From: Acidimicrobiales bacterium
Lineage (GTDB): Bacteria > Actinomycetota > Acidimicrobiia > Acidimicrobiales > Acidimicrobilacustridaceae
Reading direction: 5' to 3'
Assembly: GCA_018401565.1 (NCBI GenBank)
Contig: JAGYKS010000029.1
Location: 1 to 64,000, forward strand
Length of the DNA stretch: 64,000 nucleotides
This document shows, in pieces, positions 11,400 through 14,967 of the stretch; the stretch's first letter is position 1, and the number at the start of each line of letters is the position of its first letter. Made by a program: the position numbers and the translations under genes. The notes beneath the pieces were generated by a model. The model had not been told where the DNA came from. It worked only from the letters and a program-made list of their open reading frames with translations, and did no database searches.

Positions 11400-11991
11400 A
11401 CCGTGGGGACAACCCGGCGTATTGCCGGAGGGGTCCCCGGTTGTCGACAGCGACGCCGGTCTGCGTGCACTCGTGGAGACCGCCCGTCGCGCCGGGGCAC
11501 CGTTGCCGATGGTCGGGTTGCTCGGCGGTGACCTGTGTCGCACCGTGGGGGGTCCGGGCGATCCGGCCAGGCTTGTGGGCGGGGGAGTGGTGCTGCCCAT
11601 CGACGTTGTGCGTGCTGACATCGACGGCGTCGCTTACTGGTTCTGCGCCCATCTCGTCGCCCGCCGAAGCTGGCTGTTCGGCAGGGCGGTAGTGGTGATG
11701 AATGCCCAGTGGATGGGCTCATGGGATCTCGGCCCGCGGGCCCACCCCAACGATGGTCTGGCCGACCTCACCGACGGCACCCTTCCCGTGGGAGACCGGC
11801 TCGAAGCCCGACGGCGGGCACATTCGGGGACCCATGTTCCCCATCCTTCGTTGACCGTGGCCCGCAGGTCTCGCCACGAGCTCACCTTCGATCCGCCACT
11901 CGATATCTGGCTTGACGGTGAGCGGGTTGTTCGTCGGGCGCGTTCGGTGGTGGTGTCGGTCGAACCCGACGCCACCAGCGTGGTCGTGTGA
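11380..11991 (+). CDS. Uncharacterised protein resembling the C-terminal domain of diacylglycerol kinases
   Basis: 203 residues from ATG 11380 (MTIRKGEPWGQPGVL), which overlaps the helY end by 20 bp. It contains LVGLLGGDLCRTVGGPGDP-like segments, a VLPIDVVRADIDG stretch, NAQWMGSWDLGPRAHPNDG and a C-terminal LDGERVVRRARSVVVSVEPDA. The last two blocks recall the beta-sandwich C-terminal half of YegS/DAGK lipid kinases. No catalytic GGDGT domain is present, so it is not a full kinase. Translational coupling to helY suggests a linked role. The family assignment is tentative. Confidence 0.65.
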   Translation: MTIRKGEPWGQPGVLPEGSPVVDSDAGLRALVETARRAGAPLPMVGLLGGDLCRTVGGPGDPARLVGGGVVLPIDVVRADIDGVAYWFCAHLVARRSWLFGRAVVVMNAQWMGSWDLGPRAHPNDGLADLTDGTLPVGDRLEARRRAHSGTHVPHPSLTVARRSRHELTFDPPLDIWLDGERVVRRARSVVVSVEPDATSVVV

Positions 11992-11997
11992 GACCGG

Positions 11998-12003
11998 TAG
12001 CCT
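11998..12003 (+). promoter_or_regulatory. -10 element of the M20 gene
   Basis: CGGTAGCCT context; TAGCCT ends 7 nt before ATG 12011 and supports that start. Confidence 0.55.
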
Positions 12004-12010
12004 GACTGCC

Positions 12011-13327
12011 ATGCCCGATCTCTCCACAAGCCTGTCCAGCGGGTCCGACGCCGAGCCCAACGGCGCTGCCGAACTCGATGCCCTCAAACGCCGACTGTGC
12101 GACGAGGTCGATGCCCGGGCAGCCACGCTGGTGGAGGTGTCGCACGCCTTGCACGCCCATCCCGAACTTGGGTTCGCCGAGACCTTCGCCCACGACCTGT
12201 TGACCGGAACCATCGCCGCCGAAGGGCTGGAGGTGCAGCGCTCGGCCTACGGCCTGGCCACCGCCTTTGCCTGCGATGCCGGCGACACCGGGCCGATCGT
12301 GGCCGTGCTGTGCGAGTACGACGCCCTCCCGGGCCTGGGCCACGCCTGTGGCCACAATGTCATTGCCGCTGCCGGTCTGGGAGCGGGGCTGGCCGCAGCG
12401 GCGGTCGCTGGCGACGTTGGCGGCAGGATTCGCATCCTGGGCACGCCCGCAGAGGAGGGCGGTGGGGGCAAGGTCTACATGCTCGACGCCGGTGCCTTCG
12501 ATGGTTGTGACGCAGCGATGATGGTCCATCCGGCAGAGGCCGACCTGACCGAGATCCACGCCATCGCCGTCCAACAGGTGGTGGCCACCTACCGCGGGGT
12601 CGCAGCCCATGCCGCTGCTGCTCCCCATGAAGGCCGCAATGCCCTGGATGCCGCAGTGCTGGGATACGTGAACGTCGCTGCGCTTCGCCAGCACATACGA
12701 GATGACGAGCGCCTTCACGGGGTGTTCACCAATGGTGGCGACAAGCCCAACATCGTGCCGTCGCGGGCCTCCACCCACTGGTACGTGCGGGCTGGCGACA
12801 TGACGCGCCTGGACGCACTGCGGTCCCGGGTCGAGACCTGCCTGCGGGCCGGAGCCGACGCTGCCGGCTGCGGTGTGGAACTGGAGTGGCTGGATCCGGC
12901 GTTCGCCAATCTGGTGAGCAACGATCCGCTGGTGGACCTGTACGTCGCCAACGCCCGTCGGCTTGGGCGTCACCCCCAGGTGCCCACGGCGGCCACGGCG
13001 GTGACCGGAAGCACCGACATGGGCAACGTGAGCCATGCCGTTGCGTCCATCCACCCCATGATCGCTGTGTCGCCCCCCGGGGTGTTCATCCATACCCCGG
13101 AGTTCGCCACCCATGCCGGAGGGCCCGGCGGCGACCAGGCGGTGATCGACGGGGCCAAGGCCATGGCCATGACCGTCGCCGATCTGTGGTGCAATCCCGA
13201 AGCGCGCCACGACGTGCTGCATCACTTCGCTGCCAGGAATGAGTCCCACGCCATGAGGGTCGTATTTGACCTGCTCAGGCGCCATCCGCGGCCAACCGCA
13301 TCGCGCCACCTACGCTCCCGGCCGTGA
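12011..13327 (+). CDS. M20 family metal-dependent amidohydrolase (AbgB/aminobenzoyl-glutamate hydrolase-like)
   Basis: Zinc-dependent amidohydrolase of the M20D type. It hydrolyses an N-acyl or amide bond; homologues cleave p-aminobenzoyl-glutamate or N-acyl amino acids. Metal and catalytic blocks are present: HPELGFAE, YDALPGLGHACGHN (HACGH), GTPAEEGGGGK (EE), and later a dimerisation domain around YRGVAAHAAAAPHEGRNALDA. GSTDMGNVSH and TPEFATHAGGPGGDQAV complete the peptidase domain. 438 residues, intact. ATG chosen with the upstream -10. The last four bases overlap the next gene. Exact substrate unknown. Confidence 0.88.
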   Translation: MPDLSTSLSSGSDAEPNGAAELDALKRRLCDEVDARAATLVEVSHALHAHPELGFAETFAHDLLTGTIAAEGLEVQRSAYGLATAFACDAGDTGPIVAVLCEYDALPGLGHACGHNVIAAAGLGAGLAAAAVAGDVGGRIRILGTPAEEGGGGKVYMLDAGAFDGCDAAMMVHPAEADLTEIHAIAVQQVVATYRGVAAHAAAAPHEGRNALDAAVLGYVNVAALRQHIRDDERLHGVFTNGGDKPNIVPSRASTHWYVRAGDMTRLDALRSRVETCLRAGADAAGCGVELEWLDPAFANLVSNDPLVDLYVANARRLGRHPQVPTAATAVTGSTDMGNVSHAVASIHPMIAVSPPGVFIHTPEFATHAGGPGGDQAVIDGAKAMAMTVADLWCNPEARHDVLHHFAARNESHAMRVVFDLLRRHPRPTASRHLRSRP

Positions 13328-14967
13328 CCGTGTACGTCGCTGAAGAGTTCACGCCGACCGAGGCGGACGTTCTCAGGCGCTACTTCACCAACCTTGATTC
13401 ACCGGTGTTCGCACTGGTGAACCTGCCTGAGGTGGTGAAGGGTGCCCTGTTCGCCCGCTACTCGCGATCGTCCAAGAGTCTGCGCCGCCTGTTCCTCGAT
13501 GAGTTCGTGGCTGAACTCGACGTTTCCGGCGATGTCAGCATCGACGCAACCATCGGGTTGCGCCGGGCCGAGGAGCTCTATGACCGTGTGTTCTTCGAGT
13601 ACGGAGACGACTCGGTGGCCCAACTCGGTGGGGTCCATCTGGCCTGTGAGCAGGCGTCCAACGTCCTGACCAAGGTGCTGGAGTGGGGTCGGCTGATGTC
13701 GTACCTCGAGCAGTCCACCAGGTACATCCCCTACGACACGCGCATCGGTGGTCGGTACCGGTACTACCGGGACCCCGAGGTGCTGCAATCGTCGCTGGGT
13801 ACCCGCTACGTCGGCGACATGGACCGGCTGTTCGACAGCTACGGCCAACTGGTGCCCCAAATGAGCGACTTCTTTCGTGAGGCCTTCCCCAAGGGTCCTG
13901 GCGATTCAGACTTCGTGCATCGTCAGGCCATCCGGGCCAAGGCCTTTGACACCCTGCGTGGCATCCTTCCGGCGGCGTCGCTGTCGAACGTCGGTATTTA
14001 TGGAACGGGCCAGGGGTACGAGGCGCTGCTGCTGCGCATGCGCTCGCATTGGCTTCCTGAGGCCAGGGCCTACGCCGACTTGATGCTCACTGAGCTGCGC
14101 AAGGTGATCCCGTCGTTTCTCAAGCGGGTGGATCTGCCCGATCGGGGCGTGGCGTGGAGCGGCTATCTGGCCGATACCCGTGACGCCACCGCCGAGCTGG
14201 CCGTCGAACTGCTCGGGTCAATGGCGTCGGCAGGAGCTGGGTCAGGCCTGTCCATGGTGGCCGGTGACGACTCGGGGGCCGCTGACGTCTCCCTGGTCGA
14301 TTTCGATCCCGACGCCGAGATCAAAATGGTGGCGGCGATGCTCTACCCCCATAGCCACCTCAGCGAGACCGACATCGAACAGCAGGTTCGTGCGATGTCC
14401 ACCGACGATCGACTCCGGGTGGTCCACGCCTACGTCGGCGACCGCTCCAATCGGCGGCACAAGCCTGGCCGTGCCCTTGAGCGGTGTTCTTACCGTTTCG
14501 ATGTGCTGGCCGACTACGGGGCGTTTCGTGACCTGCAGCGCCATCGGATGCTCACCGTGGACTGGCAGCAGCTCAGTCCCCGGCACGGCTACGTACGCCC
14601 GGCAGCCATTGACGTGGCCGGATGTGCTGCGGGCTTCGACGAGGCCATGGAGCGTTCGGCGATGCTTCACGACGCCATGGTGGGGGAGTTTCCCCATCAG
14701 GCTCCCTACGCCGTGTCATTCGGCTACCGGGTGCGCTTTTCCATGCAGATGAACGCACGCGAGGCCATGCATCTCATCGAACTGCGCACCACCCCCCAGG
14801 GTCATGCCGCCTACCGGCGTGTGGCCCAGGAGATGCACCGGCTCATTGCCGACCAGGCCGGTCACCACGCCGTGGCTGAGATGATGCGTTTCGTCGACCT
14901 CAGTCCCGACCCAGGCCTCGAACGACTCGATGCAGAACGACGCGCCGAACAGCGGCGCAACCAATGA
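13324..14967 (+). CDS. Double-domain ThyX-like protein (flavin-dependent thymidylate synthase family)
   Basis: 547 residues, about twice the usual ThyX length (220-250), containing two ThyX-like halves. The signature RHRxxSxNExSxRY is split. The first half has WGRLMSYLEQSTRY (121-134), which keeps the S, E, S, R and Y positions but lacks RH and N. The second half keeps RHR (406-408, in DLQRHRMLTVDW), but the rest is altered (QQLSPRHGY). Each half therefore carries only part of the known active site. Whether it makes dTMP or does other flavin chemistry is unknown; no other thymidylate synthase is in the window. It overlaps the M20 gene by four bases (GTGA). Intact frame. Confidence 0.8.
   Translation: MTVYVAEEFTPTEADVLRRYFTNLDSPVFALVNLPEVVKGALFARYSRSSKSLRRLFLDEFVAELDVSGDVSIDATIGLRRAEELYDRVFFEYGDDSVAQLGGVHLACEQASNVLTKVLEWGRLMSYLEQSTRYIPYDTRIGGRYRYYRDPEVLQSSLGTRYVGDMDRLFDSYGQLVPQMSDFFREAFPKGPGDSDFVHRQAIRAKAFDTLRGILPAASLSNVGIYGTGQGYEALLLRMRSHWLPEARAYADLMLTELRKVIPSFLKRVDLPDRGVAWSGYLADTRDATAELAVELLGSMASAGAGSGLSMVAGDDSGAADVSLVDFDPDAEIKMVAAMLYPHSHLSETDIEQQVRAMSTDDRLRVVHAYVGDRSNRRHKPGRALERCSYRFDVLADYGAFRDLQRHRMLTVDWQQLSPRHGYVRPAAIDVAGCAAGFDEAMERSAMLHDAMVGEFPHQAPYAVSFGYRVRFSMQMNAREAMHLIELRTTPQGHAAYRRVAQEMHRLIADQAGHHAVAEMMRFVDLSPDPGLERLDAERRAEQRRNQ

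Follow-up and report, generated by a model that had tools for sequence, protein, structure and literature searches.

Thymidylate (dTMP), a building block of DNA, is made by the flavin-dependent enzyme ThyX, a target for antibacterials with an active site built at the junction of several chains. Dissecting this site is difficult, as any mutation in the homotetramer affects all of its chains at once. In ThyX of Mycobacterium tuberculosis (Mtb) and Helicobacter pylori, subunit A supplies the RHR motif and Arg199 (Arg174 in Thermotoga maritima, Tm) to the active site, Ser105, Arg107 and the lid residue Tyr108 come from subunit C, and subunit B contributes Ser71 and Arg190 to flavin adenine dinucleotide (FAD) (PMC6514825). 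The PBCV-1 enzyme likewise takes Gln75 and Arg182 from one monomer and Ser88 and Gln89 from another (PMC3498832), and PolB draws Phe79, Arg82, His83, Arg86 and Arg193 from one monomer and Glu94', Ser96', Ala97', Arg98' and Arg166' from the other (PMC5003785). Duplication of ThyX has been known since 2009: Valas and Bourne (2009, PMC3224940) describe a domain duplication in most Chloroflexi ThyX and in a few other species, presented there as uncharacterised. Here we analyse a double-length ThyX gene in the first 64,000 nucleotides (forward strand) of contig JAGYKS010000029.1, from an Acidimicrobiales bacterium (GenBank assembly GCA_018401565.1)—a stretch referred to below as the window. From its sequence and distribution, the encoded protein is probably a working flavin-dependent thymidylate synthase, i.e., a duplicated or fused ThyX with labour divided between its halves, which would assemble into a pseudo-tetramer with two composite sites.

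Two ThyX domains in one open reading frame

The gene runs from a GTG start at 13324 to a stop at 14967. The Pfam Thy1 model (PF02511) matches its 547-aa product in two stretches, with an E-value of 8.8e-34 and a score of 117.4 bits that exceeds the gathering cut-off of 24.8 bits. The domains and the residues on which the analysis turns are located as follows, with conservation counted over the double proteins introduced in the next section.

13324..14967, + strand: two-domain ThyX open reading frame, 547 aa (open reading frame and translation; PF02511 twice; model pLDDT 90.5, pTM 0.88)
13363..14148, + strand: N-terminal ThyX domain, approximately residues 14-275, with a degenerate RHR (W121-G122-R123); putative dUMP-binding and lid half (VIA-align to 3gwc; conservation)
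13684..13725, + strand: W-G-R-x-x-S-x-x-E-x-S-x-R-Y, residues 121-134, counterpart of the active-site loop in ThyX (Tm E86, S88, R90, Y91; 151/151 for E129, S131, R133 and Y134; joint alignment)
13957..13959, + strand: R212, aligned with Tm Arg147 and Mtb Arg172, which contact deoxyuridine monophosphate (dUMP) (joint alignment; 151/151)
14275..14913, + strand: C-terminal ThyX domain, approximately residues 318-530, with the active-site loop deleted; putative FAD-binding half (VIA-align to T. maritima ThyX)
14539..14547, + strand: R406-H407-R408, the RHR motif (Tm 78-80; 151/151; joint alignment)
14752..14760, + strand: N477-A478-R479, aligned with Tm N163-A-R165 (FAD phosphates; R479 151/151, N477 145/151; aligned with T. 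maritima and H. pylori ThyX)
14785..14787, + strand: R488, aligned with Tm Arg174 (dUMP uracil; 151/151; kept in phage homologues)

The sequence-only reading, a first look at these letters without database searches, had proposed a two-domain, ThyX-like protein of twice the usual length, with WGRxxSxxExSxRY at residues 121-134 and, in the second half, RHR (406-408) without the rest of the signature. The open reading frame is there, with two PF02511 matches, and W121-G-R-L-M-S-Y-L-E129-Q-S131-T-R133-Y134 occupies exactly those residues. RHR also stands where it had been placed, but the second half is less depleted than proposed, since N477-R479 and R488 are kept as well; the first half, in turn, holds the Arg147 equivalent R212 beyond the motif. 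Neither half carries the complete RHRxxSx(N/S)xxSxRY signature within one domain that defines a canonical single-domain ThyX.

An AlphaFold2 model built with 88 diverse relatives reached a mean predicted local distance difference test score (pLDDT) of 90.5 and a predicted template modelling score (pTM) of 0.88, and mended a first model built with 41 close relatives, in which the core of the N-terminal half was unreliable (pLDDT <50 at residues 94-136). The single-chain model from the 88 relatives was compared by Foldseek and VIA-align with known folds. By VIA-align, the C-terminal half (317-528) matched T. maritima ThyX TM0449 with a Z-score of 16.8 and a root-mean-square deviation of 2.3 over 193 aligned residues, and the N-terminal half (19-278) matched M. 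tuberculosis ThyX 3gwc with a Z-score of 13.1 over 208 aligned residues—both halves are thus predicted to adopt the ThyX fold. The closest viral models, a 461-residue entry and the protein of phage Ma-LMM01, each match across both halves. Sequence searches were less sensitive: phmmer with the single protein returned only chance-level matches among PDB sequences, a profile of the C-terminal half found ThyX weakly (E 4e-4) and one of the N-terminal half at chance level (E 0.66). As a profile-profile comparison gave no reliable direct alignment between the halves, their homology rests on the Pfam matches, on joint alignment with canonical ThyX and on the fold.

Active-site residues are divided reciprocally between the halves

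To map the active site, the double protein was aligned jointly with canonical ThyX sequences from its phylum and with those of M. tuberculosis and T. maritima. In Tm numbering, the N-terminal half places W121-G122-R123 in the RHR columns and E129, S131, R133 and Y134 at Glu(Gln)86, Ser88, Arg90 and Tyr91, while R212 and R238 align with Arg147 and Arg174. The C-terminal half has RHR in its column, lacks the active-site loop altogether, and places N477 and R479 at Asn163 and Arg165 and R488 at Arg174; its Arg147 position is without Arg, except in the most divergent member of the family. When the residues are sorted by the chain that supplies them in solved enzymes, one chain's set (RHR and R488) is retained 4/4 in the C-terminal half, which has 0/5 of the second set; the N-terminal half has 5/5 of that second set (E/S/R/Y and the Arg147 equivalent) and has lost the first two RHR residues. 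Simple arithmetic gives a sense of this pattern: random loss of five of the nine residues from the C-terminal half would give the observed set in only 1 of 126 choices. Judged from the alignment, the conserved residues would form one complete site between N- and C-terminal halves and leave the reciprocal site broken. Because solved ThyX structures split the motif between chains of a single site, such a division is the pattern of a fused hetero-pair, not that of a broken enzyme.

Conservation was scored over 151 non-identical double proteins, with identities to the query down to 39%, that combine further phylum genomes with the 80 loci (at most 84% identity, mostly in records titled Acidimicrobiia or Acidimicrobiales) of a scan of GTDB genomes. 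Invariant in all 151 are S47, D95, S97, R123, Y127, E129, S131, R133, Y134, R212, Q230 and E233 in the N-terminal half, and R374, R377, R378, R383, E386, Y390, R402, D403, R406, H407, R408, R471, R479, E486, R488 and H494 in the C-terminal half. At the degenerate RHR, position 121 is Trp in 131 sequences and Arg in the other 20, and G122 is Gly in 147. The identity of E129, S131, R133, Y134, R406, H407 and R408 throughout this range indicates that the split of the motif is not due to chance.

The same data bear on whether each half might be an ordinary ThyX with relaxed site requirements, or one half catalytic and the other structural or regulatory. The N-terminal half does keep R123, R238 and the E/S/R/Y residues, falling short only of the first two RHR residues, and 20/151 relatives have Arg at the W121 position. 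However, RHR and R488 would be needless in a merely structural half, and they are present in 151/151; the whole active-site loop is gone from the C-terminal half; and several phage homologues lack the R238 equivalent in the N-terminal half while keeping RHR or RHN and Leu-Arg in the C-terminal one. We therefore regard either arrangement as quite unlikely.

The only candidate thymidylate synthase found in the genome and nearly all relatives

No other Thy1 protein, and no thyA, thymidine kinase or dihydrofolate reductase (DHFR) gene, was detected in the source genome, which is 91% complete. The sequence-only reading had held that the two halves together supply roughly one complete motif set, had offered as explanations a fused heterodimer-like thymidylate synthase or a flavoenzyme of another function, and had named a normal thyX or thyA coupled with a lack of flavin binding as evidence that would count against it. 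The complementary residues, identical in 151/151 sequences, bear out its first point; no thyA and no other thyX was found; and the agreement between the split and the published division among chains, together with that absence, argues for the fused enzyme. The other flavoenzyme is the less likely of the two explanations.

The distribution of the gene extends this picture. Across the order, 58/61 genomes carry double ThyX and 7/61 a thymidine kinase, while thyA and DHFR were each detected in 0/61. Within a phylum sample of 197 genomes, the double form occurs in 53, canonical ThyX in 92 and a permuted ThyX in 5, with no overlap among the three; the p-value obtained in this survey, 4e-22, overstates independence because the sampled genomes are related. 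No other known synthase was found in 51 of the 53 double-bearing genomes, 35 of which also lack thymidine kinase; thyA appears in two of the 53, as two pieces in one (G244) and a short piece in the other (G182). Three genomes of family f40 carry permuted ThyX instead of the double form, and one Acidimicrobiia genome (G224) has thyA in its place—replacements that support functional equivalence of double ThyX. Double ThyX is the only candidate thymidylate synthase identified in the source genome and in almost all of its relatives.

These occurrence data make it improbable, if somewhat less so than the two arrangements of the halves considered above, that the protein is a ThyX-derived flavoenzyme that (hydroxy)methylates another pyrimidine nucleotide, e.g., uridine monophosphate (UMP) as PolB does, and not the cell's thymidylate synthase. 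An enzyme of the ThyX fold able to turn over UMP does exist in PolB (PMC5003785), the double protein scores under the thyX equivalog cut-off, and, according to the title of 3ge9, Corynebacterium glutamicum can make thymidylate without its ThyX. However, C. glutamicum relies on ThyA, as the title of 3fnn states, and thyA is lacking in the source genome; neither known synthase family is otherwise present there or in 51/53 double-bearing genomes, 35 of them also without thymidine kinase; and in f40 and in the source's class, permuted ThyX or thyA stands in for the double form in some genomes, as if swapped. Highly improbable, and the least favoured of the alternatives, is a degenerate, non-catalytic ThyX paralogue alongside an unknown source of dTMP: the full motif is indeed absent from either half alone, but the complementary set is perfectly conserved in 151 sequences and double ThyX occurs alone across an order.

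Several side observations arose from these surveys. Five lone ThyX-like open reading frames of ~300 aa (L197-L201, in G109, G098, G069, G131 and G211) have the core motif NTHRAFSRNSASSRAIP close to the N-terminus and PHWSPLEHVATP close to the C-terminus; they represent a divergent ThyX of permuted order, which takes the place of the double form in part of f40 and in f55. Sampled genomes of families f46, f48, f52 and others have no Thy1 match and show only weak thyA-like matches (E ~1e-9 to 1e-11), which cover model positions 110-227 and in some cases are interrupted by a stop codon; these genomes may encode a thymidylate synthase that is divergent or unrecognised. Two full double-ThyX genes were present in G099, and contig C60 of G043 bears a further Thy1 piece, the third in that genome; these are second copies or mixed bins. 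Homologues at 69-84% identity also occur in bins titled 'Bifidobacterium breve' (L032, L042, L079), record titles that look wrong.

Homologues in phages and plasmids

Among phage and plasmid records, the fused form was found in Tunturiibacter phage Tunturi_5, Microcystis phage Ma-LMM01 and its relatives, Vibrio phages Yong and BONAISHI, and a Microcoleus phage, as well as in plasmid records of Bacillus and Paenibacillus, in Euzebya and Miltoncostaea, and in a record of Parabacteroides distasonis; RefSeq labels such double proteins FAD-dependent thymidylate synthase. We aligned the Tunturi_5, Ma-LMM01, Vibrio, Microcoleus, Bacillus licheniformis, Paenibacillus and Parabacteroides proteins. Each of them retains, in its N-terminal half, E-x-S-x-R-(Y/F) together with the residue equivalent to Arg147 and, in its C-terminal half, R-H-(R/N) and Leu-Arg. 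In Tunturi_5, the double ThyX gene directly follows that for dCMP deaminase, with a dUTPase gene nearby—a context for dTMP synthesis.

Two apparent exceptions were rejected. Vibrio phages with the protein split into two genes proved not to be such, as the second feature overlaps the match by one base only, and B. licheniformis, which had seemed to carry the N-terminal half only, has a full-length gene. As a separate observation, the Parabacteroides distasonis homologue (NZ_OY725790.1, L207:5983-7602; 44% identity), from a Bacteroidota record, has a DHFR gene in its vicinity; it lies on a sequence of 278 kb that the record calls a plasmid, and looks like a case of horizontal transfer.

Proposed mechanism

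On this basis, we propose that ThyX was duplicated (or fused) and that its halves then divided the labour. Two fused chains would form a pseudo-tetramer resembling the ThyX homotetramer; of its four possible sites, the two in which a C-terminal half faces an N-terminal half in the right order would keep the full residue set, and the other two would be degenerate. The C-terminal half would hold FAD (R406-H407-R408, N477/R479) and the uracil (R488), and the N-terminal half would bind dUMP and close the lid over the flavin (E129, S131, R133, Y134, R212). A methylene group would pass from methylene-tetrahydrofolate to FAD and on to dUMP, with release of tetrahydrofolate. Since a ThyX-type reaction returns tetrahydrofolate, no DHFR is needed, and the absence of DHFR fits such a reaction.

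Several points weigh against this proposal. The NCBIfam thyX equivalog TIGR02170 gives the protein 46.8 bits, below its curated cut-off of 87.9. T. maritima His53 is replaced by Asp (D95) in the N-terminal half of 151/151 sequences, and the C-terminal half offers no His in its stead; most phage forms have His at this N-terminal position. The contacts made by the third chain are divided, with an S97 like Mtb Ser71 in the N-terminal half and an R479 like Mtb Arg190 in the C-terminal half, though the invariant C-terminal R383, near the Ser71 position, could stand in for the former. Finally, three of the 61 order genomes have no Thy1 match (G002, 91% complete; G003, 72%; G034, 71%). Taking all the evidence together, it is likely that these proteins constitute a half-of-sites family of fused pseudo-heterotetramers with halves specialised for FAD and for dUMP and the lid, a family that is the only synthase found in most Acidimicrobiia and other actinobacterial lineages and that also occurs in large phages.

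Gene neighbourhood

The gene overlaps the end of its upstream neighbour, for which no role is inferred:

11912..13327, + strand: M20-family peptidase open reading frame (PF01546; 4-base overlap with the ThyX start)

An M20 peptidase homologue lies near the double ThyX gene, on the same strand, in 42/80 loci. Between 8637 and 17579, the window encodes a DSHCT helicase, the M20 peptidase, ThyX, a DUF4193-like acidic protein, an unknown protein, a GNAT protein and an enoyl-CoA hydratase, an arrangement partly conserved across Acidimicrobiia. The helicase, M20 peptidase, GNAT and enoyl-CoA hydratase neighbours are uninformative on function.

Significance and comparison with known systems

A natural fusion that fixes two contributions in separate halves would make each of them separately mutable, and so offer a direct test of what each ThyX chain contributes. 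It also points to a probable thymidylate route in a large, mostly uncultured group of Actinomycetota without thyA, standard thyX or DHFR. Motif or equivalog rules for thyX overlook such proteins or under-score them. The literature searched, largely without subscription papers, yielded no description of a split active site or of such an enzyme in Acidimicrobiia, and a reciprocal sharing-out of active-site residues between fused halves appears to be undescribed in it.

With canonical ThyX (flavin-dependent thymidylate synthase, FDTS; T. maritima TM0449, M. tuberculosis, H. pylori, PBCV-1), the double protein shares the fold in both halves, and equivalents of RHR, E/S/R/Y, Arg147, Arg174 and Asn-Ala-Arg are all present. 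It differs from the canonical homotetramer with its inter-chain site in having two domains per chain, each without part of the site, in the Asp for His53 and in its sub-threshold TIGR02170 score. By domain and fold it is a ThyX, though not a canonical single-domain one, and by function it is probably a thymidylate synthase. PolB (4p5b), a UMP/dUMP methylase of polyoxin biosynthesis, has the ThyX fold and an assignment of residues to two monomers that matches the split described here; unlike double ThyX, it is a single-domain homotetramer with intact sites and accepts both UMP and dUMP for turnover. The duplicated ThyX of Chloroflexi (PMC3224940) probably belongs to the same family, as judged by its published description, which in the passages found comes with no active-site analysis. 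Similar in plan are gp20 of Microcystis phage Ma-LMM01 and the protein of Vibrio phage Yong: as in double ThyX, one gene encodes both ThyX-like halves, with residues split in the same way, although these proteins are only ~25-29% identical to the Tunturi_5 form and have His at the His53 position of the N-terminal half.
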